The notes: generated by a model from the sequence alone, not told the origin. A DNA stretch of 64,000 nucleotides from a candidate division WOR-3 bacterium (GCA_039801085.1 JBDRTY010000002.1:381339-445338); one strand, 5' to 3'; counted from the first letter of the stretch, positions 8,685 through 43,291 are shown. Translations and numbers: made by a program.

Positions 8685-8692
8685 GAGGTGAA

Positions 8693-14577: not shown

Positions 14578-14972
14578 TTACACTTCCTTTCCAGCCGGCT
14601 TAAAAGTTCAATAACCTGCTGTTTAATCATCTCCCGGACCCGGCGGTATTCCTCAATCCCTCTGCCTTTCGGGTCTGGAATCTGCCATTCAATTCTTTTT
14701 ACACCCGGCAGAAACGGGCAAGCAACTTCACAGCCCATTGTAACAAGATAGTCAAACTTCAAATCCGGCAGGTCTGCAAACCCTTTGGGTTTTGCCTCTG
14801 ATATGTCTATTCCAACTTCCTGCATTACCGCTATTGCCTCTAGGGAGACCTCCTTTTCGGGACTGGAACCGGCAGAGGCGCACTTAACATCTTTCCCCAG
14901 TTCCCGGCAGAACGCCTCAGCCATCTGGCTCCGGCAGGAGTTGCCAACACAGGCAAAAAGGATGCGGGTCAT
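14574..14972 (-). CDS. arsC: Arsenate reductase, low-molecular-weight phosphatase type
   Basis: A 132-residue thioredoxin-coupled type ArsC. The P-loop is C8-V-G-N-S-C-R14 (CX5R) followed by S-Q-M-A-E-A. Two further Cys at 81 and 85 (TMGCEVAC) can relay the disulfide, as Cys82/Cys89 do in the Bacillus enzyme, though the spacing is shorter. The DP motif IPDPKGR near residue 100 gives the general acid Asp. The enzyme reduces arsenate to arsenite for export by Acr3. The stop overlaps the next ATG (ATGA). Confidence 0.92.
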   Translation of the reverse strand: MTRILFACVGNSCRSQMAEAFCRELGKDVKCASAGSSPEKEVSLEAIAVMQEVGIDISEAKPKGFADLPDLKFDYLVTMGCEVACPFLPGVKRIEWQIPDPKGRGIEEYRRVREMIKQQVIELLSRLERKCK

Positions 14973-14982
14973 CTTAGTTCAC

Positions 14983-17044: not shown

Positions 17045-17056
17045 TCTTGCTCTCCT

Positions 17057-18229
17057 TTATGTCAACGCACCGAAAATCAAGCCGACAATTGTTGAAAGGA
17101 CAACCACCAGCACAATATAGGTAAACCCCTTTTTGAAGCCAATGGTGCGGATGATGACAATCATTGAGGGCAGAGAGAGCGCCGGCCCGGATAAGAGCAG
17201 GGCGAGTGCCGGACCTCTGCCCATGCCTGAACCCAGCAGTCCCTGCAGAATTGGAATCTCGGTCAGGGTGGCGAAATACATCAGGGCGCCGGAGACCGAA
17301 GCAAACAGGTTGGACAAAAGCGAATTACCGCCGACCAGCCCGGCAATCACCGAATCAGGAATGATGCCCCGGTTCAGTCCCGGTCTGCCCAGCAGAAAAC
17401 CGGCAACAAATACTCCGCCCAAAAGCAGCGGCAGAATCTGTTTGGCAAAGCTCCAGGTTGAGGCAACCCATGATTTCCGCTCTTCGCCCGAGAACCAGAA
17501 AAAGACCATCAGAAGCGTCAAAAGGAGAAAAATACCGGCAAGGAACCATTTTACAGAATAAACTGCACTGAAGAGTCCAATCGGTTCTTTTGGCTTGCCC
17601 CAGTTGGCGAAGACCAGAAAGAGAATCATTCCGGCAAAGTAGAGGATATTCTGCCACAAACTCCGCCTGGTCTGTGGTGGTTCAAGGCTGAAACGGGTAA
17701 AGGCTTCTGCCCGCTGCTGTTCTGAACGGGAAAAGATTAGAGCCATCAGAAGCCCGATAATTACCGAAAACAGGACCGCGCCGATTACCCTTGCCGCCCC
17801 CAGTTCCAAGCCCAGCACCCTGCCGGTCATGATGATGGCGAGGATGTTGATTGCCGGACCGGAATAGAGAAAGGTGGTTGCGACCCCCAGCCCGGCGCCG
17901 GCATAATAGATGCCCATAAACATCGGCAGAACTGTGCAGGAGCAGACCGCCAGAATCGCGCCGGAGACCGAGGCAACCGAATAGGCAAGCACCTTGTTGC
18001 TCCTGGGCCCGAAGTATTTCAAAACCGCCTCTTTGGTGATGAAGTTCTGAATCGCACCGGCAATAAAGAAGGCTGGGACGAGGCACAGAAGCACATGGAG
18101 CCGGGCATAGTCCTGCAGCATCGCCAGCCCTTCCAGAAATGCGGTCTGAACCCGGATATGGTTAAAGGGGATAAAGTAAAACAGAAGAAACAGAGCAAGA
18201 ATAACGAGAAACTTCTGGTACTCCTTCAT
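17057..18229 (-). CDS. Permease, DUF318/ArsP-like
   Basis: A 390-residue inner-membrane protein with eight to ten helices. The family signatures are present: ILAVCSCTVLPMFMGIYYAG near residue 100 with a Cys pair, and MYFATLTEIPILQGLLGSGMGRGPALALLLSGP near 320. A soluble loop lies in the middle. Relatives include ArsP, which exports trivalent organoarsenicals, and thioredoxin-associated permeases of unknown cargo. Its location between ccdA and acr3 supports export of an arsenical or another thiol-reactive species. Distantly related to the permease at 9760-10686. Confidence 0.88.
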   Translation of the reverse strand: MKEYQKFLVILALFLLFYFIPFNHIRVQTAFLEGLAMLQDYARLHVLLCLVPAFFIAGAIQNFITKEAVLKYFGPRSNKVLAYSVASVSGAILAVCSCTVLPMFMGIYYAGAGLGVATTFLYSGPAINILAIIMTGRVLGLELGAARVIGAVLFSVIIGLLMALIFSRSEQQRAEAFTRFSLEPPQTRRSLWQNILYFAGMILFLVFANWGKPKEPIGLFSAVYSVKWFLAGIFLLLTLLMVFFWFSGEERKSWVASTWSFAKQILPLLLGGVFVAGFLLGRPGLNRGIIPDSVIAGLVGGNSLLSNLFASVSGALMYFATLTEIPILQGLLGSGMGRGPALALLLSGPALSLPSMIVIIRTIGFKKGFTYIVLVVVLSTIVGLIFGALT

Positions 18230-18243
18230 CTGCTACTCCTTTT

Positions 18244-18945
18244 CTATGCGGTCCATAAGAGATAGACTCCGCCTAAAATCACTAAGATACCGCAAACCTT
18301 CTTGACAATTGCTGCCCCTTTTGACCGGGCGTTCCAGTTGAGATAGCGCTGGACAATTTCAGTGAGCGTTCCGGCAGCAACGATTACTGAGCAGTGGCCG
18401 ATGCCATAAACTAAGAGCAAAAGTACACCGTAGAGAAACCGGGTTGAAGCAAGCGTAAACACAATCCCGAGCATTGGCGCCATATAGGCAAAGGTGCAGG
18501 GACCAAGCGCAATCCCGAAAAGAAGACCTAAAATCAGGGCAGCAAGAGCACCTTTGCGCCTGAATGCCGACTCCCTGGGGGTGCCGATAAAGGGGAGCGG
18601 TATTACCTCCAGGAGATACAAACCCACGACAAGAAAGATGACGGCAAGGATATAGTTACCATAAGGTCCGACATCGCCCAGCATTCTGCCCAAAAGAGCG
18701 GTTATGAGTCCGATGAGGCCGATTGTGGCAAGGATTCCCAGGGAAAAGAGCAGAGCAAGGACAAAAGCCCTTTTAGTTGAGGTTGTCTCCTGACCGCTGA
18801 TAAAGCCGACGATCAGGGGAATGCTGGTCAGATGGCAGGGGCTCAAGAGGATACTCAAGACACCCCAGAGAAATGAAGCGGCAATTGCCACCGCTGGTGA
18901 TGAACCTACCCCATCAGCAAGCCATTCAAGAATGGAGCGGAGCAT
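18244..18945 (-). CDS. CcdA-like thiol-disulfide transmembrane exchanger
   Basis: A 233-residue protein with six or more helices. The two reactive Cys are in the typical sites: LLSPCHLTSIP near residue 36 and IALGPCTFAY near 150. CcdA-like proteins pass electrons from cytoplasmic thioredoxin to extracytoplasmic thioredoxin-fold partners. The gene directly follows the membrane-anchored thioredoxin fusion (two-base gap), which is the obvious partner. Confidence 0.88.
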   Translation of the reverse strand: MLRSILEWLADGVGSSPAVAIAASFLWGVLSILLSPCHLTSIPLIVGFISGQETTSTKRAFVLALLFSLGILATIGLIGLITALLGRMLGDVGPYGNYILAVIFLVVGLYLLEVIPLPFIGTPRESAFRRKGALAALILGLLFGIALGPCTFAYMAPMLGIVFTLASTRFLYGVLLLLVYGIGHCSVIVAAGTLTEIVQRYLNWNARSKGAAIVKKVCGILVILGGVYLLWTA

Positions 18946-18947
18946 TG

Positions 18948-19958
18948 CTACTCCATCCCCATTTCTTTGAGCTTCCGGATGATCTCCTCCTTGGGCAGAA
19001 ACCCTTCGTGGCGCCAGAAGACATTCCCCTCTTTATCAAAGAAAATCTGGGTCGGGATAATGCGAACATTGTATTTATTGGCAAGTGCCCGATATTCACT
19101 GATCTCCAGTAGAATGATATTTGCCCGGTCACCATACTCTCGTTGCAGTTCTTCAAATATCGGTTTCATCATTCTGCACGGCACACAATGACCGGCGCCG
19201 AGGTCCAGAACTGTCGGTTTTCCACTCTTTAAGGCGCTGGTAAGCGGGTCTGCGGGTTTCTTTGCCCGCTGTTCAGAAAGCCACTGTTCATTGCGCCAGA
19301 TTCGGGCACGGGTTTTAAGACTTTCAATATAACTGTCAGCCGCTTCTCCCCGTTTCTGCTGTAAAAGAAAGCTGTGAATCTGGTCCCGCACCTGGTTTAG
19401 TGATGCGCCCGCCATCTCCGCCTGGCGTTCCTCATAAAACCGGCGGATTTCATCTTCGGTGACGGTGAGCCGGCTGGTGAGGTCTTGAAGCAGGCGTTCG
19501 ATCGCCCGGTCCTTTTTCTGTTCCGGCTCGGTGGCGCCGGCATTTTCGACCAAGCCCTGTTTTTTCGCCTCCTGATAAAGCAGTTCCCGGATGATCAGCT
19601 GCTCGAGCAGTTCTTCGAGGTCGTTTTTGTAAATGTCCTGATACTGAGCCGGCAGGGAACGAAACATCTTATCCAGGTCATTTCGGGTGAGCCGGGTATT
19701 GTTTACCACTGCCAGCACATTGCCGGTTGGAACCGGGGAGACCGTTTCTGCGACTGGTGCGGAATCAGTCTGCACAGGCTGGGAAGTCCGAACCGCAGAA
19801 TCAGTAACCGGTGCAGCGCTTAAAGTTTCAGCTGGAGCGTAAATCCCGGCTGGTGCGTTGCCGGTTTTTGCTCCCCGGCTGAGTTTTAATATCAGAACCG
19901 CTGCGACTAACACAACTACCGGAACGGCAATTGCCGGCTTATACCAGTTTTTTTTCAT
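18948..19958 (-). CDS. Fusion of SurA-like N-domain and thioredoxin, membrane anchored
   Basis: A 336-residue envelope protein. One helix (residues 7-25) anchors it, and a Pro/Ala/Thr-rich linker runs to ~80. Residues ~80-215 look like the helical SurA/PrsA-type chaperone N-domain: VVNNTRLTRNDLDKMF, LLEQLIIRELLYQEAKKQG, LTVTEDEIRRFYEE. The last ~110 residues are a thioredoxin fold with active site HCVPCRMMKP and cis-Pro RIIPTQIF. No parvulin catalytic domain is visible, so it appears that the PPIase part has been replaced by thioredoxin. It probably reduces disulfides in the periplasm with CcdA. The ATG overlaps the arsR stop (ATGA). Confidence 0.82.
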   Translation of the reverse strand: MKKNWYKPAIAVPVVVLVAAVLILKLSRGAKTGNAPAGIYAPAETLSAAPVTDSAVRTSQPVQTDSAPVAETVSPVPTGNVLAVVNNTRLTRNDLDKMFRSLPAQYQDIYKNDLEELLEQLIIRELLYQEAKKQGLVENAGATEPEQKKDRAIERLLQDLTSRLTVTEDEIRRFYEERQAEMAGASLNQVRDQIHSFLLQQKRGEAADSYIESLKTRARIWRNEQWLSEQRAKKPADPLTSALKSGKPTVLDLGAGHCVPCRMMKPIFEELQREYGDRANIILLEISEYRALANKYNVRIIPTQIFFDKEGNVFWRHEGFLPKEEIIRKLKEMGME

Positions 19959-25758: not shown

Positions 25759-26796
25759 TCAGTTGACGATTATTCTTCCATTACCTTTTATCACTTTACC
25801 GATGAACCGGGCGTCGACGATTCCAGAGCGCTGGAGTAGATTCAAAAGCCGGGATGCCCTGGGTTCAGACACGGAGATCAGCAGGCCGCCTGAGGTTTGG
25901 GCATCGCAGAGGATGAGCTGCAGTGTTCTGGAAATGCCGGCACAGAAACGGGTGGATTTTTTTACAAACCGGTAGTTATTGAGTGTGCCCAGCGGGTAAA
26001 GACCCAGCTGTGCCAGTTCGACCGTGCCGGGAATCAGCGGGACGGCTGATGCTTCAATTACGAGGTTGACCCGGCTTGCCTGCGCCAGCTCCCAGGCGTG
26101 ACCCAGAAGACCGAAGCCGGTAATATCGGTTGCAGCGCTGACTCCGATTTTAACCATCAGTTCCGCCGCGGTTCGGTTAAGAGTGGACATCAGGCGGTTG
26201 GCAAGCCGGATTGATTCTGACGGCGCTCTGCCGGCTTTAAGTGCGGTGGTGATGATGCCGGTGCCGAGCGGCTTGGTCAGAATCAGCCGGTCGCCGGGGC
26301 GGGCACCGGCGTTGGTAATTACCTTCCCGGGATGAATGGTGCCGATGACCGCCAGTCCGAATTTGATCTCCTGGTCTTTGAAGGTATGACCCCCGGCAAG
26401 GACTGCACCGGCTTCACTGATTTTACTGATTGCACCGGCAAGGATTGCCCGGATACGGGTGTGTTCGATTTTGTCCGGCGGAAAACCGAGCACTGAAAGT
26501 GCCGCCAGTGGTTTGCCGCCCATGGCATAGACATCGGAGATTGAGTTGGCAGCGGCAATCTGCCCGAAGGTGAACGGGGCCTCGGCGATCGGACCGAGGA
26601 CATCAACGGTGAGGACCAGCGTCTGGTTGCGGTTGAGCCGGTAAATTCCGGCATCGTCCGCGGTATCTCCGCTGACCAGAAGGTCTGGGTGGATGGTTTT
26701 CGGCAGTTTTTTCAGGATTGCATAAAGGTCTGCCTGGCATGTCTTGCCGGCACAGCCAGCAGCGGTGGCAAATTCCAGCAGGGAGCGGGGTTTCAA
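25759..26796 (-). CDS. selD: Selenide, water dikinase (Cys form)
   Basis: A 345-residue enzyme making selenophosphate from selenide and ATP. The active site is at the N-terminus: G14-C15-A-G-K18, with the essential Cys and Lys in place and the second Cys of the E. coli GCGCK motif replaced by Gly. Next are the metal/ATP motifs SGDTADDAGIYR, TVDVLGP and FGQIAAANSISDVYAMGG. The start is TTG at 26796, three bases after the previous stop, so translation is coupled. No selA, selB, selC or ybbB homologue is visible in the window. Its position in a run of exported thioredoxin-like genes is unusual. Confidence 0.9.
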   Translation of the reverse strand: MKPRSLLEFATAAGCAGKTCQADLYAILKKLPKTIHPDLLVSGDTADDAGIYRLNRNQTLVLTVDVLGPIAEAPFTFGQIAAANSISDVYAMGGKPLAALSVLGFPPDKIEHTRIRAILAGAISKISEAGAVLAGGHTFKDQEIKFGLAVIGTIHPGKVITNAGARPGDRLILTKPLGTGIITTALKAGRAPSESIRLANRLMSTLNRTAAELMVKIGVSAATDITGFGLLGHAWELAQASRVNLVIEASAVPLIPGTVELAQLGLYPLGTLNNYRFVKKSTRFCAGISRTLQLILCDAQTSGGLLISVSEPRASRLLNLLQRSGIVDARFIGKVIKGNGRIIVN

Positions 26797-27441: not shown

Positions 27442-28218
27442 TCACCTCCGGACTACTTTACATTTTGCAGTCTGTAATACCCTTTTTGTTGCCGGCTGCT
27501 GAATGAAGGCAACCGCCTTCAGCCGGTTAGGATTCAGATGACCGGGCAGATTGAAGGAAATGTCAAATCGCAGCGTTTCTGCCCGGAAGAGCCGGAGCGG
27601 TTGACCTTCAACTCCGAACAACAGCAGGCGCAGGACATTGTGAAACAGGGAATCGGTTGCCCCACTGAGGGGCGCCCGGACACTGTCCTCGGTAATTGCA
27701 ACGAACAGGCGCAGGGTTTCTGCCGGCGTTGAGTCCACACCCCAGGTATGGATCGTGATCCGGCCGGTGTCTGCCCGGCTGAACGCCTCGATCTCCAGCT
27801 GTGCCTGCGGGAAATGGCTCCGGCAGGCAAGGATGTAATTTTTATAGGTTTCGTAGTTATATTCCGGTCCGGGTGTCCGGACCACCTCGCCACCGTCAAA
27901 GACCACTGCCGGCTCACCACCGGACTCGTAATACAGCGCCCGCCGGAGTTCAACATACTCCGGTGACAGGGTGTCACCAGCAACCCGGCGGTGCCAGGCG
28001 ATGACCGCGACACTGTCATTAAATTCTCCGATAAGGCTGTCAAGGGTGTGAGCGGCATAGGGGCAGTAGACACAGCGTTGCCAGGTGAACAGTTCAGCAA
28101 GGACAATCCGGTTGGTAGGAATGAGCGGTATTTCCGGGGCCTCGGAGCAGGCTGCGATGAGCAGGGGCAGGCAGGCAAAAGTTAGCCGCCTGCCCCTAGT
28201 GCTGATGAGCGCAGTCAT
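27442..28218 (-). CDS. Omp28-like thioredoxin-fold lipoprotein
   Basis: A 258-residue lipoprotein (LLIAACSE lipobox near residues 19-26). The body begins VLAELFTWQRCVYCPYAAHTLDSL, the Omp28-type thioredoxin fold with a CxxC site and cis-Pro-like GGEPAVVFDGG. The remaining half is beta-sandwich. The start overlaps the stop of the larger paralogue upstream (TAATG). Together the pair probably handle disulfides at the cell surface; actual activity is unproven. Confidence 0.8.
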   Translation of the reverse strand: MTALISTRGRRLTFACLPLLIAACSEAPEIPLIPTNRIVLAELFTWQRCVYCPYAAHTLDSLIGEFNDSVAVIAWHRRVAGDTLSPEYVELRRALYYESGGEPAVVFDGGEVVRTPGPEYNYETYKNYILACRSHFPQAQLEIEAFSRADTGRITIHTWGVDSTPAETLRLFVAITEDSVRAPLSGATDSLFHNVLRLLLFGVEGQPLRLFRAETLRFDISFNLPGHLNPNRLKAVAFIQQPATKRVLQTAKCKVVRR

Positions 28219-29957
28219 TACCGGAGGAGAATTATCCGCCGGAGTGGTTGATCGCCGGTTCTGATAAAGTAAACCCCTGGTGCCAGACGGGAAAGATCAT
28301 TACTGCCCGGGGTCAGTTCGTATGTTTTTCTACCGGCCGCATCCACCAGCTGGCCAGGATGGTATCCCGGGACACTACCGGCCAAGTTCAGCCGGGAGCG
28401 GATAATTGTGGCGTTTCTGAGCACTCCGCTCGCTGTTTGAGGCACAGGTTCGGCAACTGCCAGTCCAGTGCCGGCGGTCAGGTCGTCAATGTACCAGCCC
28501 TCGCCAACATCACTGTAATCGCTGATCAACCGGAAGCGGAGCTGGACCGTCTGGCCCCGGAATGGTGTCAGATCCAGCTGTACCTGTTCCCAGTTACCAC
28601 TGGACCCGGTAAAACTGGCGAGTTGATACCAGAAGGGTGAACCATTATTGAGCTCAACGAGTGCAAAGTCGTAGTTTTCCTCGGTCTGATAGTAGTGCCA
28701 GAACCGGACCCAGGCTGATTCGCCGACCGTGAACAGTGGGGTCATCAGTCGAGCATCCATTTCGTTAATATATTGATGACCTGCCTCGTTACCACAGTAC
28801 CAGGAGTTGTTGGGCGAGACACTGCGATAGGTTGAAAGATGCCAGTAGTCTCTGATGCCACCATGGGTCCAGTTGCCGGTGCCGTGTTCCATGTCGTCAG
28901 CAAAACCGGGGCTGGCGGTAATGTTGAGCGGGAACAAAATGGTGTCGGTGCCGAAGTCGGTACTGGTGACAATCAGCTTCAGGGTGGCGAGATGCGGGTC
29001 TGGACAGGAGGAGCTGATCTGGATTACGAATGGCTGACTGGCAGAGACATCAGCGCCGATCGGGATACTGCCAAAGCTGGCGGTATTCTGGGTAATGGTC
29101 AGATAGGGATCGGTGGTGGACAGCATGGCACTGGCACCGGTTGCAGCAGCGGTGCCGATATTGCGCAATACCACCGTGAGGTTTATTGTACTGCCCGGTG
29201 CGGGCAGGATCGGCTGACAGCCCGAGTATTTCAGCAACGGCTTCGGCATGACCGCAGTCAGTGCCCCTTGGTACATAATCTTGGTAGCATTGTCCTGGAC
29301 GAATACGATAATCTCGCAGTTCTTCGCCACCCAGCCGGAGGCGATGGTGAAATTTCTGGTCCGGATGATGGTGTCATTTGCGGGAATGGTGACCGCCTCA
29401 CCGGCAGCGCTTGGGAGCATTGTCCGTTCAACATCATGCAGGGAGTCCATTCCCTGCCACGGGTAGTAGATGTGGCTTTCGGTGATGACCGTATGAAGCT
29501 GACCGGTGACCGGAGCGGTAGAGGTATTGCGGACGAGGATCGTCAGGGTGCCGTTGCGTGTGACTGAGTCGTAGGCAACATCAAGGTCAATTTCCAGTGG
29601 GCTGGTGATGGTTTTTCGGTAGTCAAAAATCTGACGATAGGTCGGGTACATCGTGCCGTAATGCATACCGCCCACTACCGATTGGGTGCCGTCAATCCGC
29701 ATTGTCGGGTAACCGCTCACGCCGTAATAGCTCATCCGGCTTGCCGCAGTCGCAGTGTAGAATGGATCTGAGGTTGATGAATGGTAGGCGATCACCACTA
29801 CTGAGTCAAATGCGCGGGATTTGAGTTCTTCCGCACCACGGGCGGCACCCGGGCAATAGGTGCACCAGGTAGCGGTGAAGTCCTCCATCACTACGACCCG
29901 CTGCACCGCAAAAAGTGCCGGGCACAGGGCAAGAATGAGCATCAGTAGTTTCTTCAT
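28218..29957 (-). CDS. Omp28-like thioredoxin-fold surface protein with sorting-like tail
   Basis: A 579-residue exported protein. Signal 1-17; thioredoxin-like domain with TATWCTYCPGAARG and cis-Pro VSGYPTMRIDG (20-200); a CARDB-like beta domain (about 240-340); an immune-inhibitor-A/MAM-like jelly roll (DDMEHGTGNWTHGG to GEGWYIDDL, 350-500); and a C-terminal tail (LAPGVYFIRTGD, ending RRIILLR). This large modular form occurs in FCB-type bacteria. It heads a unit of at least four coupled genes ending with selD. AAAGGAGGT lies before the ATG. Confidence 0.85.
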   Translation of the reverse strand: MKKLLMLILALCPALFAVQRVVVMEDFTATWCTYCPGAARGAEELKSRAFDSVVVIAYHSSTSDPFYTATAASRMSYYGVSGYPTMRIDGTQSVVGGMHYGTMYPTYRQIFDYRKTITSPLEIDLDVAYDSVTRNGTLTILVRNTSTAPVTGQLHTVITESHIYYPWQGMDSLHDVERTMLPSAAGEAVTIPANDTIIRTRNFTIASGWVAKNCEIIVFVQDNATKIMYQGALTAVMPKPLLKYSGCQPILPAPGSTINLTVVLRNIGTAAATGASAMLSTTDPYLTITQNTASFGSIPIGADVSASQPFVIQISSSCPDPHLATLKLIVTSTDFGTDTILFPLNITASPGFADDMEHGTGNWTHGGIRDYWHLSTYRSVSPNNSWYCGNEAGHQYINEMDARLMTPLFTVGESAWVRFWHYYQTEENYDFALVELNNGSPFWYQLASFTGSSGNWEQVQLDLTPFRGQTVQLRFRLISDYSDVGEGWYIDDLTAGTGLAVAEPVPQTASGVLRNATIIRSRLNLAGSVPGYHPGQLVDAAGRKTYELTPGSNDLSRLAPGVYFIRTGDQPLRRIILLR

Positions 29958-30120: not shown

Positions 30121-30912
30121 CTACTTCTGACCGATATAGAATCCTCTGCCGACCTGATGCCGGTGGGCAGCATCGCGCCACATGTTCACCAGATTGACCG
30201 CAAACTGAAACAGATCCTGGCCGAAGTTCTGGAGAATCGTTGGTTTGAGCTTTTCTTCAACCATCACCTTGTATTCGTCAAAACAGCGGGCGAATTCCTC
30301 AGTCTGATCCTGAGCCTGAAGGATTTTGAAGCCGGCACGCTTGAGCACCTCCTGCCAGCCTTCAAAGGTCTCCATATAGGGAAATGCCATTGATTCGTAG
30401 AGTTTTGCCAGCAGATCCTCCTCAATTTTGCCGGTGATCACCCAGTCAGTGAATCCGATCTTGCCCCCCGGTTTCAATACCCGGTAGCATTCCCGTGCCA
30501 GCAGATCCTTGTCGGTTACATAGCACCACGCCTCCTGGCCCCAGACGATGTCAAAGGTGTTTGACTTGAACGGCATGTCCAGCGCGTTGCCTTCGACATA
30601 GGTGATCAGGTGGTCCAGTCCTGCATCTTTTGTCCGCTGCCGCGCCTTTTCCAGCATGGTCTTGGTAAAGTCCAGACCGGTTACCCGGACGCCGTACTTC
30701 TGTGCAATGTGCCGGGCAGGAGCACCCAGCGCACTGCAGACATCAAGCACATGCATCCCGGGCTTCAGTCCCAGCGCCTGAGCGAGCCGGTCGGTTGCCT
30801 CCAGTCCTCCGGAGTGAATCTGCTCACCCATGACCGCTTCCCAGAGCAGACCGCCCGGACCATCATAGACTTCCTGGACATCCTTACCGGTATAGTCGTA
30901 ACGCTTCGGCAT
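30121..30912 (-). CDS. Class I SAM-dependent methyltransferase
   Basis: A 263-residue cytoplasmic enzyme. Motif I is VLDVCSALGAPARHIA near residue 55, motif post-I VTGLDFTKTMLEKAR, motif II around MPFKSNTFDIVWGQEAWCYV, and YRVLKPGGKIGFTDW is the fourth conserved block. Its layout resembles sarcosine/dimethylglycine or phosphoethanolamine methyltransferases, which act on small amines, but substrate residues cannot be read with confidence. AAGGAGG precedes the ATG. The 5' leader of ~250 bases contains a micro-ORF and three hairpins. Confidence 0.85.
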   Translation of the reverse strand: MPKRYDYTGKDVQEVYDGPGGLLWEAVMGEQIHSGGLEATDRLAQALGLKPGMHVLDVCSALGAPARHIAQKYGVRVTGLDFTKTMLEKARQRTKDAGLDHLITYVEGNALDMPFKSNTFDIVWGQEAWCYVTDKDLLARECYRVLKPGGKIGFTDWVITGKIEEDLLAKLYESMAFPYMETFEGWQEVLKRAGFKILQAQDQTEEFARCFDEYKVMVEEKLKPTILQNFGQDLFQFAVNLVNMWRDAAHRHQVGRGFYIGQK

Positions 30913-34568: not shown

Positions 34569-35927
34569 ATGAAACAGACCATTTTCTGCTGGGTGCTGTC
34601 GATCTTGGTGATGGTAAGTCATGCCTGCACCATCGGTGTTTTTGGTCCCTCGGCAACGGTTGACGGGCGGATAGTACTCTGGAAGAATCGGGATGTTACC
34701 AACCCCGACCAGGAGATGGGTGTGTTCCGGGGACCACGGTACCGGTTTGTTGCCAATGTTTATGCTGGTGAGACACTGGATGTCTGGGCCGGGATTAATG
34801 ATGCCGGTTTTGCGATTATGAACTCCAATTCCTACAACCTCAGCGGTTATGGTGTGGGCGCAGATGACGGAAATATCATGCGGCAGGCACTGGGAAGTTG
34901 TGCGACGGTTGAGGATTTTGCAAAACTGATGGATTCACTGAATACAGTCGGGCGGGAAACACCGGCAAATTATGGTGTTTTTGATGCTACGGGCGCAGCG
35001 GCGATCTTTGAAGCCAGCAATACTTATTATTACCGGTTTGATGTTGATCGGGACTCATTGGGGTTTCAGCTCCGGGCAAATTTCTCCCTTGCCGGCGGTC
35101 CCAGCAGACTGCTCGGCAAAAACCGTTTTGAACGGGCGATGGAGCTCTGTACCGCCCGACTGAGGGAAAGCAGAATCTCGATGGACTTTATTATCCGGGT
35201 TCTGAGCCGGGATCTGGGGCAGGTCGGGTTTGAACCTTATCCCCTGCCGTTTCTGGGCAGAATGGATCCACTGCCTTACGGTTATCTGCCGATCGACACA
35301 ACTATCGCCCGGGTAACTACCCGTTCGGTTGAAATCATGGTCGGACCCCAACCTGGTGCCAGCCCGAATACTGGAATGATGTGGGTTCTGCTCGGATCGC
35401 CACTGGCGACAATACCCGTTCCATTATGGATACAGGGGGGTGCGTTGCCGAAGGAGCTGAACGGGGCTAATACCGCACTGCTGTGTGATGAAGCAAAGCG
35501 GCTGTTCAGCTGGCTCTGTCCGGACCCGGACTTTCCCAAGGCGGTTAATACTTTCCGGCTTGCCCGCTGGCTGGATTATATTGCCCCCCGGGAATCGATC
35601 ATACTCCAGCTGGTTGCGGAAAAAGAGCAGGAGTGGGGACCGGATGGCCCGGATTCACTGGCAGCAGCACAGCTGACCCGGTATGTATGTCAACTGGCTG
35701 TAGCTGCCTACCAAGAGTTCTGGCAGGAGAATGATCCGAAATTTGATGCGGAAAGCGAGCGGGCAAGATTGACGGTGCAGCGGTCAGGACGCACCGAAAC
35801 ACTGCACCGCCTGCCACCCCGTATCAGACTGTTTGATGTTGCCGGTCGCCGGGTTTTTCAATATCAGCCGGGTGTGATGATCATTTGTGATGACAGCACC
35901 CGGCAGAAACTGCTGATTATCAATTAA
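34569..35927 (+). CDS. Exported C45/choloylglycine-hydrolase-like Ntn hydrolase
   Basis: A 452-residue exported protein with signal peptide to ~19 and Cys next (SHA|CTIGVFGPSA). The mature N-terminal Cys followed by DGRIVLWKNRD is the catalytic arrangement of the Ntn-hydrolase class (acyl-CoA:6-APA acyltransferase/C45 or linear amide hydrolases). GINDAGFAIMNSNSYN and a later N-x-F region match. The tail (RIRLFDVAGRRVFQYQPG, ending KLLIIN) is a weak version of the sorting-like tails seen elsewhere in the window. Substrate unknown; amide or peptide hydrolysis at the surface is likely. Confidence 0.8.
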   Translation: MKQTIFCWVLSILVMVSHACTIGVFGPSATVDGRIVLWKNRDVTNPDQEMGVFRGPRYRFVANVYAGETLDVWAGINDAGFAIMNSNSYNLSGYGVGADDGNIMRQALGSCATVEDFAKLMDSLNTVGRETPANYGVFDATGAAAIFEASNTYYYRFDVDRDSLGFQLRANFSLAGGPSRLLGKNRFERAMELCTARLRESRISMDFIIRVLSRDLGQVGFEPYPLPFLGRMDPLPYGYLPIDTTIARVTTRSVEIMVGPQPGASPNTGMMWVLLGSPLATIPVPLWIQGGALPKELNGANTALLCDEAKRLFSWLCPDPDFPKAVNTFRLARWLDYIAPRESIILQLVAEKEQEWGPDGPDSLAAAQLTRYVCQLAVAAYQEFWQENDPKFDAESERARLTVQRSGRTETLHRLPPRIRLFDVAGRRVFQYQPGVMIICDDSTRQKLLIIN

Positions 35928-36694
35928 GCGGAAAGAGTGGCACCGAAGGCGGCTGCCAACAGAGGGAACTGTGCGGTCTGAACCGGCAGGTTGAGCGTCT
36001 TTGTCAGAGCGGACTGCATGCCAGAATTTAATGCGGTCCCACCGGTGAAGATTATTTCCGCGGTAATAGAGAGCCGGGCAGCCATTGCGGCAATCCGGCT
36101 GGCGAGCGCGAGATGCAGTCCGGCAATGATATCCTCCGCCGGTGTGTCAGCGGCGACCATGGAAAGAATCTCAGTTTCTGCCATGACGACACACAGACTT
36201 GAGAGAGTAACCGGTTTCTGGGAACGGGTGCTCAGTTCACCGAACTGTTCAATCGGAATGTCCAGCGCCCGGGCGATGAATTCCAGAAAACTGCCGGTGC
36301 CGGCGGCACAGCGGTCATTCATCACAAAGTCCTGAATCTGGCCTTCGCTGTTCAGGCTGATGACTTTGGAGTCCTGACCGCCGATGTCAATGATTGTCCG
36401 GCACCCGGGATGCCAGTGCCGGATGCCCCGGGCGGTTGCGGTGATTTCGGTAACGGTCGCATGGGCAAAATTGACACTGTGCCGGGCATAGCCGGTGGCG
36501 ATGATCCGGAAGAGGTCATGCTGGCTCAGTTGTGCCTGTTCCAGCGCAGTGGTCAGTGTCTTTACCGCTGTCTGGCGCGGGTACATGCCGGTTCGGCTGA
36601 CAGCGGTGGCGGCGATCCGGTCCTGTTCCGGTTCATAGATGACTACCTTGGTGTTTGCCGAACCGACGTCAATACCAGCGATGTACATTGTCAT
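35924..36694 (-). CDS. 2-hydroxyacyl-CoA dehydratase activase-type ATPase (BadF/HgdC family)
   Basis: A 256-residue ASKHA ATPase that reduces its partner with ATP. GIDVGSANTKVVIYE at the N-terminus is the phosphate-1 motif. Two cluster Cys are in NDRCAAGTGSFLE near 130 and LSSLCVVMAETEI near 165, so the dimer can hold the bridging [4Fe-4S]. The last gene of the corrinoid operon; its start overlaps the stop before it (ATGA). It likely energises the HgdB-like proteins encoded upstream at 37767 and 39146. Confidence 0.92.
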   Translation of the reverse strand: MTMYIAGIDVGSANTKVVIYEPEQDRIAATAVSRTGMYPRQTAVKTLTTALEQAQLSQHDLFRIIATGYARHSVNFAHATVTEITATARGIRHWHPGCRTIIDIGGQDSKVISLNSEGQIQDFVMNDRCAAGTGSFLEFIARALDIPIEQFGELSTRSQKPVTLSSLCVVMAETEILSMVAADTPAEDIIAGLHLALASRIAAMAARLSITAEIIFTGGTALNSGMQSALTKTLNLPVQTAQFPLLAAAFGATLSA

Positions 36695-37770
36695 TGCCTC
36701 CGTGCCGGTTTGGGAGGAAATTCATAGCCACCGGCAATTTTAGCGGTCCGGACAAAGGTGGCAAGATTTTCGGGCGGGGTTGCCAGCGGGACTTCACAGC
36801 CGGTGGCGCAGACATAGCCGCGGGGACAGGTCTTTCCGAGCCGGACCATGGCTTCGACCCCGGAGTCGATTTCGGCCGGGGTGGCAAGCCAGAGAGTGGT
36901 GGTGTCAAAGTTGCCGATGAGCCGGACCTGATGACCTACCGTTGCCAGCGCCCGCTCAAGCGGAATCCGGTCAATACTCACCAGATCAGCACCGGTCTGA
37001 GGTATGAGCGGGATGATGCCGGTGGTGTCGCCGCAGATGTGCAGGACCACATCCAGATCATACCGGTGCCAGAAGCTGATTACCGCTCTCTCATAGGGCA
37101 GGGCAAACTCCGCATACTGCTGGGGACTGAGGACGCTGCCGGAGGCAAGTGGATCAACAAGGATTGGCAGGGCACCGGCACGGATGATCGACCGGGAGAA
37201 GGCGATGACTGCCCGGGTTGCATAGTCCAGAAGGTGTTTTACGGCGTCGGGATTTTCAATCAGCCCGATCAGAAACGCCTCCGGATCAACAAGCTGCTGG
37301 GCGGTGGTAAATGGCGCCGGAATGTATGCCAGTACCGGTATCCGGTCAGCCACCGCCTCGTAGGCATAGTTAATGGCATCCAGATAGACACCGAGCCGGC
37401 CGAATCCGCGGCTGAAAAGTGCCGGCAGGGAAGGAGCGGTGCCGATCTCCTCTAGCGCCTGTTCCAGATCCGGCCAGCGGGGTTGGGCAAGGACCGGCAG
37501 TTCCGATTCCGGATAGTAATACCGGGAGCCGAGCCCTTCGGCGATAATTCCGACCTCGGAGAATACCGAGATGAAATCGGTCTGGAAATGGTCCTGAGCC
37601 CGGAGCTGACATTTTGCCATGACCGTGCCGTCCGTATAGTAGTCCCGCAGGGAGACGCCGCAGAAGCCGGCCGCATAGGAGGTGAGCAGGGGGAAAACCG
37701 GAACCCGGTCCTGAGGTTCGTCAATGACCAGCAGTCCGAACCGTTCGCGCGGGTTCAGTAGTTCACTCAT
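36691..37770 (-). CDS. UroD-family corrinoid methyltransferase (MtaA-like), copy 2
   Basis: A 359-residue TIM-barrel of the uroporphyrinogen decarboxylase superfamily, in the methyltransferase branch (MtaA/MtbA/CmuA). The zinc set H-x-C...C appears in VVLHICGDTTG and YVCATGCEVP. PVLAYIPAPFTTAQQL and LVDPLASGSVLSPQQYAEFALPY are typical of substrate-side blocks. Overlaps the HgdB-like gene upstream and activase downstream by four bases each (ATGA). It transfers a methyl group to or from a corrinoid protein; the substrate is not known. Confidence 0.85.
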   Translation of the reverse strand: MSELLNPRERFGLLVIDEPQDRVPVFPLLTSYAAGFCGVSLRDYYTDGTVMAKCQLRAQDHFQTDFISVFSEVGIIAEGLGSRYYYPESELPVLAQPRWPDLEQALEEIGTAPSLPALFSRGFGRLGVYLDAINYAYEAVADRIPVLAYIPAPFTTAQQLVDPEAFLIGLIENPDAVKHLLDYATRAVIAFSRSIIRAGALPILVDPLASGSVLSPQQYAEFALPYERAVISFWHRYDLDVVLHICGDTTGIIPLIPQTGADLVSIDRIPLERALATVGHQVRLIGNFDTTTLWLATPAEIDSGVEAMVRLGKTCPRGYVCATGCEVPLATPPENLATFVRTAKIAGGYEFPPKPARRQ

Positions 37771-39149
37771 CGCCGGCTCCGCAGCAGTTCCAGAAAGGCA
37801 TCAATTCTGGTTTTTGTCTGGCGGTCGATTTCCCGGTTGGGCGGGGCAACATCAAACTCCAGCACCGGAATCTGCAGCTGTTCACGGACGAGACTGCCAA
37901 TCAATCGGGACTCCATGGCACAGTGAGAACCACCCAGGATTCCGGAGATAATCAGTCCTTCGGCCCGGTTTGCCTGCGCCTGCCGGATGAGCATTTCTGC
38001 CCGTTCCCGGGATGTGCCGTTAAGCGAACCGTCAATATGGGAGCGGGCAATTGCGGTCAGTGGCGGCTGGGACTGATCGATCAGGGTCAGCGCCTGATTG
38101 ATCACATATTCGGTGGCAACAATCCGGGCGCCCTGATCCTCGGCATAGGTGAGCAGCAGCGGATCAGCCGGGGGTGTAAGCCAGGCGAGCCGCAGTGCCT
38201 CCGGAGGGACAACCGGCTGGCGGGTTTGCCGGCGGTATTCAGCAGTTGCCAGCAGATGTCTGAGGATTGCGGTCCATTCCGCAATGTCCGAATAGTAATG
38301 AAGACAGCCGAATTCAATGACCATTATCTCCAGCGCCGGCAGGACCGCATCCTGGTAGGCAAGCTGGCGCAGCCGGGCGGTCATGGTCCGGACCGCATTT
38401 GCCTGAGCAATGCTTTGAGCAAGAGCAGATTCAGTCAGGTGAGTGCCGGTCAGTTCCTCAAGGGCCGAAATCACCCGGTGGTACTCCGCCACCAGCAGAT
38501 CGCTGAGCGGCTCAATGTTTTCCGGCTGGCGGAGCGGGGTTTCAACCCAGAGGCAGCTGCCGGTGAGCCGGGCGACAAGGTTCTCAACACCGGAATAGTC
38601 ATCGCAGGATGCGCCGGTAGCAGCGATGATCAGATCCGGGTCCGGGAAATAGCTGTGCTTGGCAAAGGCACCAAGGGCAGCCCGGGAGTAGCAGGTGGCC
38701 TCGCCGATCCCGAGCCGGGCCGCAGTCTCAAGTAGAACTTTGCTTTCCATGACAAAGGGTGTCCACCACCAGCAGTCCGGGTAAAAGGGAACACAGTCTG
38801 GAAAGGCGTTTACCAGCACCGCCAGCGGTCCGAGATCGCCCATGACCGCGATTACTCTCCTGCCGATCTGCCGGGCACGGAACAGCCGTTCCGATTCGTT
38901 ATTGACAAAGCCCCAGAGCCGGAGGGCGGCGAGGGAGTTGTCAAATTTGAGCCGGCGCAGGTGCCGGGCGCCATAAATGGCAAATACCTGCGGTGGAAAC
39001 AGGTACTTGGACCAGGCATCCTGATTGGGCGGAAAATAGTGAAATTTTTCAATCAGCTCATCCGGAATCTGCTGAAAGAGGTCATCCCACTCCTCAAAGG
39101 TGATCCGTGCCGGGACCGGGTCCTGATAGCCGAAGTTAAATCCGGTCAT
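37767..39149 (-). CDS. 2-hydroxyacyl-CoA dehydratase-family protein (HgdB/BcrC-like), larger copy
   Basis: A 460-residue protein of the HgdB/BcrB/BcrC superfamily, which binds Fe-S clusters and does ATP-driven low-potential reduction. Cys in DCVPFYPDCWWW, EATCYSRAALGAF, GASCDDYSG and GGSHCAMESRLIG occupy plausible ligand sites. The C-terminal block (IPVLEFDVAPPNREIDRQTKTRIDAFLELL) matches the family end. It pairs with the smaller copy encoded just upstream. ATGA overlap with both neighbours. In the absence of a CoA ligase or transferase here, a true hydroxyacyl-CoA dehydratase role is doubtful. Confidence 0.82.
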   Translation of the reverse strand: MTGFNFGYQDPVPARITFEEWDDLFQQIPDELIEKFHYFPPNQDAWSKYLFPPQVFAIYGARHLRRLKFDNSLAALRLWGFVNNESERLFRARQIGRRVIAVMGDLGPLAVLVNAFPDCVPFYPDCWWWTPFVMESKVLLETAARLGIGEATCYSRAALGAFAKHSYFPDPDLIIAATGASCDDYSGVENLVARLTGSCLWVETPLRQPENIEPLSDLLVAEYHRVISALEELTGTHLTESALAQSIAQANAVRTMTARLRQLAYQDAVLPALEIMVIEFGCLHYYSDIAEWTAILRHLLATAEYRRQTRQPVVPPEALRLAWLTPPADPLLLTYAEDQGARIVATEYVINQALTLIDQSQPPLTAIARSHIDGSLNGTSRERAEMLIRQAQANRAEGLIISGILGGSHCAMESRLIGSLVREQLQIPVLEFDVAPPNREIDRQTKTRIDAFLELLRSRR

Positions 39150-40270
39150 TTTCCTGCTCCGGTCAGGATTTCAACAAACGCCTCAATCCGGGTGCGCAGC
39201 TGTTCAAAATGCTGGCGGGAGTAGTCATGGTCGATCTCCAGCATCGGCAGGCCGGTTGCCCGGCGGAGGTCCCGGGCCTCGAAACGCCAGGGGTCGCAGT
39301 AGAGCAGGGTCTGAAACACGATCCCCTGAACCTGGCGTTCGGCAATCAGCTGCCGGATGTGCTGAAAGAGTGCGGTGTTCGGGCGCCGGCAGGGACAGGG
39401 GATGCGGTTGAAGTAGTATTCGGCAAGCGCGCGGAAAGGATCGGAACCGGTGGTAATATCTCCTTCAATAAACCGGGCGCCGGTGCAGATCACATCGGCG
39501 ACAATCGCCGCCCGCTCCTCAAGCAGACTGATTACCTCCCGTTCCTCCTCGGCAATGATGCTGCCGGCAAGCAGAAGCCGGGGAGGTGTTGGTTGCCGGT
39601 TGAAGACCTGGTTCGTAGCCCGATTTTTTATTTGCGCAATCAGCGGAAGTAGATCTGCCGGTTCAAGCAGAGTTGCCAGGCTGATCAGGTCAAACAGCTC
39701 TCCGGTAGTCAGCAGGGGAACTGGCGAGACCCGCAGAGCTTCAATACTGCGCAGGGCGGAGCGGAGCCGGTTGCCAATTTCAATTTCATTCTGGAGGTGC
39801 TGGTCATCAATGGCGGTGCCGGTAAGGCGGGTGACAAAGTCGGCGAGTCGGCGCAGCTGGTGTTCAAATTCGGCAATCCGGGCCGGGAAGGGCTCGGCAG
39901 TGCGGGGGAGATAAAGCTGAAATACGGGGATTGAAACCCGGGTACCAACCAGTTCCGGCAGGCGGCGCATCATATCGCAGGTATTGACAAAAATCAGCAT
40001 GTCCATGAGCCGGTAGAGCGGGTCCGAGAGGAGTTTTTCCAGACTGCTCTTGCAGAAGGGGCAGGCATCGGCCCGGAGATGTCGCTCACCGAGCTGGGAT
40101 GACGGATAATCAGCCCGGGCAAGCCGGATTGGAACTGCGCCGGCTGCCCGCAGCAGCTCCACCGGCACATAGAGGCAGAAGTAGCCGGCAAGCTTCCTGC
40201 CCCGGGCTTTGAGCTCCTGAAGTTCATTCAGGCGCCGGGCGGCCAGATCCTGCCGGTTGATCAGCTCCAT
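39146..40270 (-). CDS. 2-hydroxyacyl-CoA dehydratase-family protein (HgdB-like), smaller copy
   Basis: A 374-residue protein. GRKLAGYFCLYVPVELLRAAGAVPIRLA is the typical N-terminal block of HgdB/BcrC/double-cubane proteins. Cys ligands can be placed at ADACPFCKSSLEKLL, FVNTCDMMRRL, RIPCPCRRPN and FQTLLYCDPWRFE, then LPMLEIDHDYSRQHFEQLRTRIEAF at the end. I chose ATG 40270 since GGAGCTCAAACC precedes it; ATG 40288 is also possible. The start lies inside the end of the activator gene. Together with the larger copy it likely forms the heterodimer, or two related reductases, energised by the BadF-type ATPase at 35924. Confidence 0.85.
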   Translation of the reverse strand: MELINRQDLAARRLNELQELKARGRKLAGYFCLYVPVELLRAAGAVPIRLARADYPSSQLGERHLRADACPFCKSSLEKLLSDPLYRLMDMLIFVNTCDMMRRLPELVGTRVSIPVFQLYLPRTAEPFPARIAEFEHQLRRLADFVTRLTGTAIDDQHLQNEIEIGNRLRSALRSIEALRVSPVPLLTTGELFDLISLATLLEPADLLPLIAQIKNRATNQVFNRQPTPPRLLLAGSIIAEEEREVISLLEERAAIVADVICTGARFIEGDITTGSDPFRALAEYYFNRIPCPCRRPNTALFQHIRQLIAERQVQGIVFQTLLYCDPWRFEARDLRRATGLPMLEIDHDYSRQHFEQLRTRIEAFVEILTGAGK

Positions 40271-41655
40271 GGTTTGAGCTCCATGCATTCAATAAACAGC
40301 TCTTCAAACTCCGGTTCCTCGGCGAGCATGATTTCCTCACACCTGTCGGCGATGGCGGTGGCGGTCTCCAGCAGTTCCGGATTAATTGTTGCCCGGACCG
40401 CACCGGCGAGCGCCAGGTCAGGGTGCTGGCGGATCCGTTTTGTCTCCATGTGCGGCAGTAGGCCGATGGTGAAGGCGGAGTCAGGGTTGATCCGGTTGCC
40501 GAATCTGCCGGTAATGAAGATCCGGTCGAGCATGGTGGATTCAGGCCGGTCGGTGCCGAACCACCGTCGCAGCAGAATCCGGATGCCGGCGGCGATTGCC
40601 GCCTTTGCCAGTTGAATTTCCCGAAGGTCGGACTGGGATAGATAGACCGGATTCTGCTCATCAGGGTGGAGGAGCAGCCGGTCGCCGGTTCGGAGCCGGC
40701 CCGAGGGCATAATCAGACCTGCCTTCAGTCCCTCAGCAACCGCATCCAGAACCCCGGAGCCGCAGATGGCAACCGGTGGACGATTACGGACCGTAATCAG
40801 TTTCCAGCCTTCAGGACGGTAGCGGCAGGCACGGATCGCACCGGACCGGGCAAAACTGCCGCACTCCAGTGTCGCTCCTTCAAATGCCGGACCGGCAGCG
40901 GTGGAGCAGGCAATGAGACGCTCGCGATTGCCCAGCACCAGTTCACCGTTGGTTCCGGCGTCAATCAGCAGGCATGGTCGGCGGCTTTGATAGAGACCGC
41001 TGGCAAGAATCGCCGCGGTGCAGTCACTGCCGATAAAGGAGCCGAGCAGGGGCAGGGTTCTGATGAGCAGACTCTCGCACCGGACAGAAATTACCTTTTT
41101 CAGTGGCAGGCAGGAGCGGTAAGGATAGATGCCGAGGGAAGCGGGATTTTCCCCGAAGAGGAAGTGCATCATTACCGTGTTGCCGACCGCAATTATAGGG
41201 TGACGCCGGTCCAAGCCGATTTCTTCGCCGTACCGGGCAAGCAGTTCGGCAAGCCGGATCTTTTTTACATTTGCTGCCTGGACGATCCGGCTGAGTACAT
41301 CCGCTCCGTATCTTGTCTGAGGATTGAGCATCGTCTCCTGCCGCTGTATCCTTTTTCTTAACCGGTCAACCGCTGCCAGAGCGATTGTGGTTGTGCCGAT
41401 GTCCGCTGCCAGCCACAGCTGTGCCGATTTCGGACGGCGGGGTGGAGGAGTTTCTCCTGCCCCCGTGAGATCGACCGCCACCGGCACCGGTTTCTGAGGA
41501 ATGAACTGGCAGGCGAGCACCGGACTGCCGTCTACGAGTACCCGGCACTTGCCGCAGCTGCCATTGCCGCCGCAGTCGCCCGGAACCGGAATGCCAGCCT
41601 GAAGCAGCAGATCACGCAGGTTCTGTCCTTGCCGGGGCCGGACCTTTATGACCAC
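40261..41655 (-). CDS. Reductive activator of corrinoid protein (RACE/RamA-like, DUF4445)
   Basis: A 464-residue redox ATPase. The N-terminal 2Fe-2S ferredoxin domain has CGGNGSCGKC...LAC near residues 27-50; the middle and C-terminal part is the DUF4445/ASKHA fold (LAADIGTTTIALAAVD, LIDAGTNGELVLGN, CSTAAGPAFEGATLECG, ICGSGVLDAVAE). These proteins reduce Co(II) corrinoid to Co(I) using ATP. I use GTG 41655, with GGAGGTGGCA before it; the longer open frame to 41766 is antifunctional because it overlaps the previous gene and lacks domain sequence. Overlaps both neighbours slightly. Confidence 0.92.
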   Translation of the reverse strand: MVIKVRPRQGQNLRDLLLQAGIPVPGDCGGNGSCGKCRVLVDGSPVLACQFIPQKPVPVAVDLTGAGETPPPRRPKSAQLWLAADIGTTTIALAAVDRLRKRIQRQETMLNPQTRYGADVLSRIVQAANVKKIRLAELLARYGEEIGLDRRHPIIAVGNTVMMHFLFGENPASLGIYPYRSCLPLKKVISVRCESLLIRTLPLLGSFIGSDCTAAILASGLYQSRRPCLLIDAGTNGELVLGNRERLIACSTAAGPAFEGATLECGSFARSGAIRACRYRPEGWKLITVRNRPPVAICGSGVLDAVAEGLKAGLIMPSGRLRTGDRLLLHPDEQNPVYLSQSDLREIQLAKAAIAAGIRILLRRWFGTDRPESTMLDRIFITGRFGNRINPDSAFTIGLLPHMETKRIRQHPDLALAGAVRATINPELLETATAIADRCEEIMLAEEPEFEELFIECMELKPWS

Positions 41656-42659
41656 TGCCACCTCCGGGCGGTCTGAATCAGCGTCTGAATATTGGCAGGC
41701 GGTGTTGAAGGTGGGACATCGCAGGCACTGGCGAGGATCAGCTTGGGCAAGGCGGTGGCAAGACATTTTTCGGCTGCGCTTTGGACTTCTGCCGGCGTGC
41801 CGTCTGCCAGCAGGGTGGTGGAGACATTGCCCATGATTATCTGTTCCGGGCCCAGCCGGTTCCGAACGAGTTCCATGCTGATGTCGTCAATACTCAGGAT
41901 CTCGGCACCGGAAGCTGCCAGCAGATCAAGAATAGTGGTGGTATCACCGCAGATGTGCAGGCCGGTCCAGAGACCAAGGGCATGAATTTCAGCAACCAGC
42001 TCTCTGAGGCAGGGCAGGGCAAACCGGGCAAAGTGCTCGCGACTGATGAGGCTGCCCGAAGCCATCGGATCACCGATAAAGGGAATTCCGCCCGCCTGAA
42101 TAATTGCCCGGGCAAAATGTTTCTGGTTTTCCGTTGCCAGCCGGAGAAAATGGTCAGCCTGCTCCGGCGCCTCAACCAGCAGGGCGAGGAACTCCTCCGG
42201 TCCGGCAAGAAAGCTGGCAAGGGAGAAGGGTCCTTTCAGTGAGCCGAGAATGAAAACCTCATCGGCCGTCAGCTGCCGGAGCTTGCAGATCGCCGCCAGA
42301 ATTACCGGCATTCTCTCCGACCGCTGGGGGTCGGCAATGCGGGCATGATTCCCCGCAGGTGTCAACAGCACCGGCGGTTCATCCTCCGGTATGTCAATCT
42401 GACAGCCCATCGCCTCTGCCTCCACGAGCACATCGGCAAAAACCATCACCAGATCGTAGTCAAACAGCCGGTAGGAGTGGTCCAGGACTGCACTCAGTAA
42501 TTCGGCATCGGTCAGCACCCGGTAGAGCTTTTCGCCGGCAAGCCGGGCAGCGCAATTGGCAACGACGATTGGAAACACTGCCGGTTCAATCTGCTGCTTA
42601 ATCAGTTCCGCCGCGGACCGATCAAGAAGCCGGGTAATCCTTGTTAGCTTGGTTTTCAC
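41646..42659 (-). CDS. UroD-family corrinoid methyltransferase (MtaA-like), copy 1
   Basis: A 337-residue methyltransferase of the same branch as the protein at 36691. Zinc site LHICGDTTTILDL and the later ASACDVPPSTPPANI supply His, Cys and Cys. FIGDPMASGSLISREHFARFALP aligns with the paralogue's DPLASGS block. It overlaps the corrinoid protein gene by four bases (ATGA). One copy may demethylate the substrate and the other methylate the acceptor, as in MT1/MT2 pairs, although both belong to the MtaA type. Confidence 0.88.
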   Translation of the reverse strand: MKTKLTRITRLLDRSAAELIKQQIEPAVFPIVVANCAARLAGEKLYRVLTDAELLSAVLDHSYRLFDYDLVMVFADVLVEAEAMGCQIDIPEDEPPVLLTPAGNHARIADPQRSERMPVILAAICKLRQLTADEVFILGSLKGPFSLASFLAGPEEFLALLVEAPEQADHFLRLATENQKHFARAIIQAGGIPFIGDPMASGSLISREHFARFALPCLRELVAEIHALGLWTGLHICGDTTTILDLLAASGAEILSIDDISMELVRNRLGPEQIIMGNVSTTLLADGTPAEVQSAAEKCLATALPKLILASACDVPPSTPPANIQTLIQTARRWQWS

Positions 42660-43291
42660 TCGGTCAGACGCCGGATTTCCCGGACCGCATTATGGGCATC
42701 CGGGGCATAGCCGTCCGCACCGATCTTCTCGGCAAAGAGCCGGTTAACCGGTGCCCCGCCCACGAGCACCTTCACCTGGTCGCGCAATCCTGCCCGCTTC
42801 AGCGCCTCAATGACCTTCGCCATGTTCGGCATGGTGGTGGTCATCAGGGCGGACATGCCGATGGCGGCAACTCCATCCCGGACCGCATTGACAAACTGCT
42901 CGATGGGAACATTTCTGCCGAGATCTATCACCTCGTAACCGGCTGCCTGCGCCATCACCTTGACGATATTCTTACCGATGTCATGGATATCGCCCTGGAC
43001 CACTCCCAGTGCGATCCGGGACCGGCGGGCAGGGGTGCGGGGAAGGTGTTCTCTGAGAATATCAAAACCGGCATACATCGCCTTGGCGGCGGCAAGCACC
43101 TCGGGGACAAAATACTCCTGACAGGCAAACTTTTCGCCGACCAGCCGCATTCCCCGTGCCAGTCCCTGCTCGAGGGCAATGTCGGCAGCGATTCCCTGCG
43201 CCAGCGCCTGCTCACAGAGCTGGAGCACCTCATCCTTTGCCATCCGGAGGACCGCATCTGCCATCCGGTCAAGAATATCCGTGGGATTCAT
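42656..43291 (-). CDS. Corrinoid protein, MtaC/MtbC-like
   Basis: A 211-residue methyl carrier. Residues ~5-85 form the helical cap (MAKDEVLQLCEQALAQGI, FVPEVLAAAKAMYAG); from ~90 the B12-binding Rossmann fold has GDIHDIGKNIVKVMAQAAG with the Co-ligating His, then VLVGGAPV and GADGYAPDAHNAV. The start is ATG 43291 (MNPTDILDRMA); the upstream extension is AT-rich and unlike the family. First gene of the seven-gene operon. Confidence 0.93.
   Translation of the reverse strand: MNPTDILDRMADAVLRMAKDEVLQLCEQALAQGIAADIALEQGLARGMRLVGEKFACQEYFVPEVLAAAKAMYAGFDILREHLPRTPARRSRIALGVVQGDIHDIGKNIVKVMAQAAGYEVIDLGRNVPIEQFVNAVRDGVAAIGMSALMTTTMPNMAKVIEALKRAGLRDQVKVLVGGAPVNRLFAEKIGADGYAPDAHNAVREIRRLTE

Follow-up and report, generated by a model that had tools for sequence, protein, structure and literature searches.

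Gene clusters for methyl-selenium metabolism, known as type 1 mlp clusters, were described by Kountz and Balskus in 2023 (PMC10418091), and they contain a corrinoid protein, a Ram/RACE activator and several SCMT-like methyltransferases with a His-Cys-Cys zinc site. This site is a mark of S/Se methyltransferases, O-methyltransferases using carboxylates or other residues, and ClMlp2 was found to demethylate methylcobalamin with selenide (PMC10418091). Selenium genes, and sometimes the double-cubane protein DCCP with its reductase, lie near type 1 mlp genes; the biological function of double-cubane proteins has been described as unknown (PMC11971306). The present analysis concerns a seven-gene operon in a 64,000-nucleotide stretch of DNA from a candidate division WOR-3 bacterium (GCA_039801085.1 JBDRTY010000002.1:381339-445338; hereafter the window), in which a corrinoid methyl-transfer module is joined to a pair of HgdB-like (HGD-D) proteins and their activase. 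The operon is a variant of the type 1 mlp clusters, new in its fixed gene order and heterodimeric reductase, and it probably serves the corrinoid-dependent salvage of methylated selenium compounds, and probably of methylated sulfur compounds as well, feeding selenide to SelD.

The operon shares with type 1 mlp clusters the corrinoid protein, activator and methyltransferases named above, the absence of a tetrahydrofolate methyltransferase from the cluster, the selenocysteine (Sec) trait in most hosts and the association with selenium genes. Unlike those clusters, for which conserved synteny is lacking (PMC10418091), the WOR-3-type operon keeps its gene order across phyla and has the heterodimeric HGD-D pair and activase built in, and it occurs in WOR-3/Stahlbacteria and further uncultured phyla, not mostly in Firmicutes. 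A clostridial cluster of Acetoanaerobium (L102) carries three methyltransferases, a corrinoid protein and RACE, with no HGD-D gene. In Methanococcus, the Sdm genes serve the use of dimethylselenide (Niess and Klein 2004, cited in PMC11097638). SdmABC resembles the present operon in that methyl-selenide is used, when selenium is limiting, by means of two methyltransferases and a corrinoid protein; no HGD-D pair or activase is mentioned for SdmABC in the text consulted.

Family searches of the window proteins identified the following genes, all on the minus strand and running from 43291 down to 35924.

42656..43291, minus strand: corr, corrinoid (B12-binding) methyl-carrier protein; Pfam B12-binding and B12-binding_2; DIHDIG corresponds to the DxHxxG cobalt-ligand motif
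41646..42659, minus strand: uroA, UroD-type corrinoid methyltransferase A; PF01208; zinc site His235-x-Cys...Cys313
40261..41766, minus strand: RACo/RACE-type ATP-dependent corrinoid activator with a 2Fe-2S domain; PF14574, PF17651, PF00111
39146..40288, minus strand: hgd1, HGD-D (HgdB-like) subunit; PF06050, 264 bits; full six-Cys double-cubane ligand set
37767..39149, minus strand: hgd2, divergent HGD-D subunit; PF06050, 129 bits; four invariant Cys
36691..37770, minus strand: uroB, UroD-type corrinoid methyltransferase B; PF01208; zinc site His244-x-Cys...Cys325
35924..36694, minus strand: badF, BadF/HgdC-type ATP-dependent activase for the HGD-D pair; PF01869; TIGR00241

These searches confirmed the families and extent of the operon proposed in an earlier reading of the window (the sequence-only reading), as well as its observation that no CoA ligase or dehydrogenase is found among the operon genes. 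The closest NCBIfam models to corr were of the MtbC/MtgC type, with scores under the cut-offs. Four junctions are formed by four-base overlaps (ATGA at three, GTGA at one). The annotated RACo start (41766) overlaps uroA by 121 bases, and translation probably begins instead at a GTG codon, either 41655 or 41661, close to a GGAGG sequence. Beyond badF lies an unrelated gene on the plus strand, convergent with the operon. An Rfam scan of the window for a cobalamin riboswitch returned none, its only matches being two tRNAs. A selenocysteine in hgd2, suggested by in-frame TGA codons in the genome search, was rejected as these were terminal stops, and tblastn revealed no convincing Sec codons in the core operon genes.

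Conservation of the operon was examined in 120 relatives using hgd2, the most divergent of the seven genes, as the probe. Matches were found in 42 relatives, of which 38 were clear orthologues and the others weak or partial. The order corr-uroA-raco-hgd1-hgd2-uroB-badF was intact in 13 of the 18 relatives' neighbourhoods examined, at approximately 30-74% identity, which indicates that the array is not due to chance; this is the neighbourhood comparison for which the sequence-only reading had called. The five exceptions were L035, which ends at a contig edge, L043 and L046, in which RACo is missing from the operon, L042, with no recognisable activase at the operon, and L034, which retains only corr-hgd1-hgd2-uroB. 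Over all neighbourhoods compared, the operon lacks RACo in several relatives. A scan of named genome contigs gave 35 loci, mostly labelled candidate division WOR-3/Stahlbacteria, the other labels being Calditrichaeota, Zixibacteriota, LCP-89, Tariuqbacter and one Planctomycetia bin; this last label could reflect an error of binning or naming, since its copy is 65% identical to the WOR-3 form. In the UroD tree, uroA and uroB formed two separate clades (support 99/97 and 100/99), each spanning the sampled lineages, so that uroA and uroB seem to be an ancient pair that has been passed on jointly. No hgd2 homologue was found on plasmids. A literature search, with most subscription journals outside its coverage, returned no paper on WOR-3 with selenocysteine or on this gene combination.

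The operon was strongly associated with genes for selenium use. selD and/or selB was present in 37 of 38 operon genomes and in 28 of 82 operon-free genomes (Fisher p ~5e-12), and within the class in 37/38 and 15/27, respectively (p ~4e-5), the relatives compared in both cases not being phylogenetically independent. Although many operons lie on short contigs, selD or selB was located within 15 kb of the operon in 21 of the 38 genomes, at varied distances and on either side. In sister genera (L030, L031) selD lies approximately 45 bp directly upstream of corr, and in other families (L038-L040, L043, L044, L046) selA and selB stand right after badF, with one extra gene call between them and badF in L044. 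The neighbours of the operon also resemble selenium-linked families, namely a SaoA/P/X-like transporter, the FtrB double-selenoprotein, Omp28-type selenoproteins and canonical DCCP. The window itself carries the following gene, which the sequence-only reading had missed together with the rest of the selenium context.

25759..26796, minus strand: selD (selenide, water dikinase), Cys form; TIGR00476, 348 bits against a cut-off of 125

The genome containing the window (1.9 Mb in 7 contigs, genome-wide statements resting on family searches) also carries selA, selB and a selenocysteine tRNA (tRNA-Sec, 74 bits). A second selD lies directly downstream of selB and carries a TGA codon, in frame, where the catalytic Cys or Sec is encoded (G000:C1:518924-521764, L082), its product being a probable selenoprotein SelD. 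Given selA, selB, tRNA-Sec and the TGA-containing selD, this organism very probably makes selenoproteins, and the Cys-type SelD of the window could serve when selenium is too scarce for the Sec form.

Next, the HGD-D pair was compared with characterised members of its superfamily. The best model for hgd1 was double_cubane (NF040772) with 219 bits, under the cut-off of 350, and hgd2 scored 65 bits. The pair reached 90 bits with HadC (cut-off 700), 94 bits with BzdN (cut-off 454) and 52 bits with BcrC (cut-off 421), and it remained under every NCBIfam cut-off. Cysteines 38, 76, 104, 268, 298 and 331 of Hgd1 align with the double-cubane ligands Cys36, 73, 100, 263, 293 and 327 of BzdN, and the set is complete in 15 of 17 aligned rows, the exceptions being L034 and L039. 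Consistent with the alignment, the predicted fold of Hgd1 (mean pLDDT 92) matched DCCP and BzdN with TM-scores of about 0.87, and this ligand set suggests that Hgd1 is a double-cubane [8Fe-9S] subunit. The invariant cysteines of the Hgd2 alignment are C126, C153, C182 and C410, and its predicted fold (mean pLDDT 82) matched DCCP, BzdO and HadB. According to the Pfam alignment and motifs, C153, C182 and C410 fit a putative proximal [4Fe-4S] site, and C126 may correspond to the position of BzdN C36, with low model confidence around this residue. The mapping of cysteine ligands that the sequence-only reading had proposed thus agrees, together with the scores, with its view that the pair is not a known hydroxyacyl-CoA dehydratase.

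DCCP/DCCP-R (PDB 6eno, 7yyl) provides both the closest model and the closest solved fold for Hgd1, with the same activase class. However, every one of the homologous subunits of DCCP holds a double cubane, whereas here the second subunit, Hgd2, is separate and divergent and lacks two of the six ligand cysteines. In this respect the pair is like the class I benzoyl-CoA reductase BzdNO (PMC11971306), in which a six-Cys subunit (BzdN, as Hgd1) is combined with a three-Cys [4Fe-4S] partner (BzdO, as Hgd2). The operon differs from BzdNO in lacking CoA pathway genes, in scoring far under the benzoyl-CoA reductase cut-offs, in having a single activase subunit rather than a BzdPQ pair, and in the extra invariant Cys126 of Hgd2. 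The activase itself was above cut-off for TIGR00241 (237 bits; cut-off 125), and its relatives are MbdQ, HadI, HgdC and DCCP-R. In some relatives, double-cubane genes of the canonical type, mostly with their own activase and distinct from hgd1-hgd2, were also observed near the operon or selD.

L043:3493-5598, canonical-type double-cubane gene; 460 bits, above cut-off
L037:607-2766, canonical-type double-cubane gene
L083:2773-4821, canonical-type double-cubane gene
L088:1864-3135, canonical-type double-cubane gene

The best solved relative of both UroA and UroB was MtaA (4ay7), with alignments running through the zinc ligands. The His-x-Cys...Cys ligands were invariant in 12/12 UroA and 12/12 UroB sequences (24 in total), and these thiol/selenol-type sites in both enzymes make O-demethylation unlikely while fitting the heteroatom-substituted substrate guessed at in the sequence-only reading. 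Type 1 mlp clusters encode orthologues of both Mlp2 and Mlp3; in the tree, the UroB clade adjoins two Acetoanaerobium Mlps (support 95/92). A single pterin-binding protein, presumably dihydropteroate synthase, was found in the genome, which suggests a thiol and not tetrahydrofolate as the methyl acceptor. Nitrogenase-like reductases were absent from this genome.

In the proposed mechanism, Co(I) would receive CH3 from a methyl-Se/S donor through one methyltransferase, and the other would pass it to a thiol acceptor, a thiol being favoured because no pterin-dependent acceptor enzyme was found, while RACo would rescue Co(II). As the least certain steps, electrons driven by BadF may pass by way of the double cubane of Hgd1 to Hgd2, and Hgd2 may either open the selenium substrate reductively at a C-Se or Se-Se bond or reduce the product so that selenide is released; the selenide would then be delivered to SelD. 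As reactivation of cobalt is already covered by RACo, the presence of another ATP-driven reductant suggests that a distinct, demanding reduction takes place, for example the breaking of a C-Se or Se-Se bond. We therefore propose, tentatively and as a possibility that is itself rather doubtful, that Hgd1-Hgd2 and its BadF activase form an ATP-driven reductase dedicated to organoselenium compounds, in which super-reduced electrons are relayed by the double cubane to the partner subunit; the latter would cleave C-Se or Se-Se bonds and direct the selenium to SelD, the corrinoid enzymes removing the methyl groups. If true, the BCR/HAD/DCCP superfamily would include an activity new to it, and a physiological role would be suggested for DCCPs. 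The sequence-only reading had offered reductive demethylation as a possible pathway, a conjecture that received no support here; its coupling of the two modules into one unit with two separate ATP-dependent activators stood. The combination is not unprecedented, type 1 mlp clusters with a double-cubane protein having been described in 2023 (PMC10418091).

Several observations weigh against selenium salvage. No substrate can be read from the sequence, the selenium linkage is one of genomic context, and the statistics behind it come from non-independent relatives. UroA shows no clear orthology to any named Mlp in the tree. The selD of the window lies approximately 9 kb from the operon with unrelated genes in between, and selD or selB occurs without the operon in 15 genomes of the class, so that the operon is not required for selenium use. 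The His-Cys-Cys sites suit sulfur as well as selenium, and in non-selenium mlp clusters an ATP-driven low-potential reductase, the nitrogenase-like methylthio-alkane reductase MarHDK, likewise stands beside the methyltransferases. The operon might thus demethylate methylthio compounds in methyl-sulfur or methionine salvage with the HGD-D pair replacing MarHDK, whose place appears vacant, as no MarHDK-type protein above cut-off was detected in 61 genomes of relatives. We consider this unlikely, however, given the strong proximity and co-occurrence of selD, selB and selA, and the neighbourhood comparison revealed no recurring methionine or sulfur genes next to the operon.

Handling of organometals or organometalloids, e.g. 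methylated arsenic or mercury, by an SAO-like transporter, an ArsM-like methyltransferase and the corrinoid enzymes is less probable still. The transporters neighbouring the operon in relatives match SaoA and SaoP best, and SaoX weakly, but the model cut-offs were not reached (SaoA 260 of 360 bits, SaoP 150 of 295, SaoX 40 of 300). Arsenic genes (ACR3, ArsC-like and ArsP permease) do occur at 13-20 kb of the window; they are approximately 16 kb or more from the operon and are not recurrent neighbours, and the nearby S-adenosylmethionine (SAM)-dependent methyltransferase scored higher as a sarcosine/dimethylglycine methyltransferase than as ArsM. Catabolic O- or N-demethylation of aryl methyl ethers, methanol, methylamines or betaine into one-carbon metabolism uses the same set of parts (corrinoid protein, methyltransferase, RACE-type activator), and we regard it as very improbable here: the zinc ligands are of the S/Se type and not the carboxylate type of O-demethylases, on which ground O-demethylation was rejected, only one pterin-binding protein is encoded, and the O-demethylase-type CdmB appeared in the PDB search only at E=0.0003, behind MtaA at 1e-20. 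Under selenium salvage, the preferred reading, the syntenic placement, across several lineages, of a double-cubane subunit beside genes for selenium use and for corrinoid demethylation provides a concrete hypothesis for the role of double cubanes, and corrinoid-linked selenium salvage is extended to lineages known almost only from metagenomes.

Among the other genes near selD in the window, the following was found in the same block.

30121..30912, minus strand: SAM-dependent methyltransferase; cluster c5; Pfam/NCBIfam

Among the 21 neighbourhoods with a homologue of this gene, most have it immediately upstream of corr or separated from corr by a single small gene. In the window, murA/ispG-type genes separate the operon from the block with selD and this methyltransferase, apparently as the result of a rearrangement. 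At loci not labelled WOR-3 (L066:5329-5751, L051, L071, L073, L074), a small EamA-type half transporter is encoded between the SAM methyltransferase and corr. Also near selD, the gene at 28218-29957 encodes a relative of the Omp28 selenoprotein family (75 bits; cut-off 200), with Cys apparently replacing Sec, and its homologues recur next to selD in sister genera. Upstream of the operon at L036:95-3936 and similar loci, a SaoX/SaoP/SaoA-like ABC transporter (under cut-off), an FtrB-like protein and an uncharacterised 279-aa protein are encoded.

The arsenic-type cluster of the window (13328-19958) comprises an ACR3 efflux transporter (above cut-off), an ArsC-like reductase, an ArsP-type permease, an ArsG/DsbD-like membrane protein, and thioredoxin-like and universal-stress-like proteins. 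At 7683-10686, a ThiI/MnmA-like protein with an NFACT-R_2 domain, an AIR-synthase-like (SelD/PurM-type) protein and an ArsP-type permease are encoded in a row.

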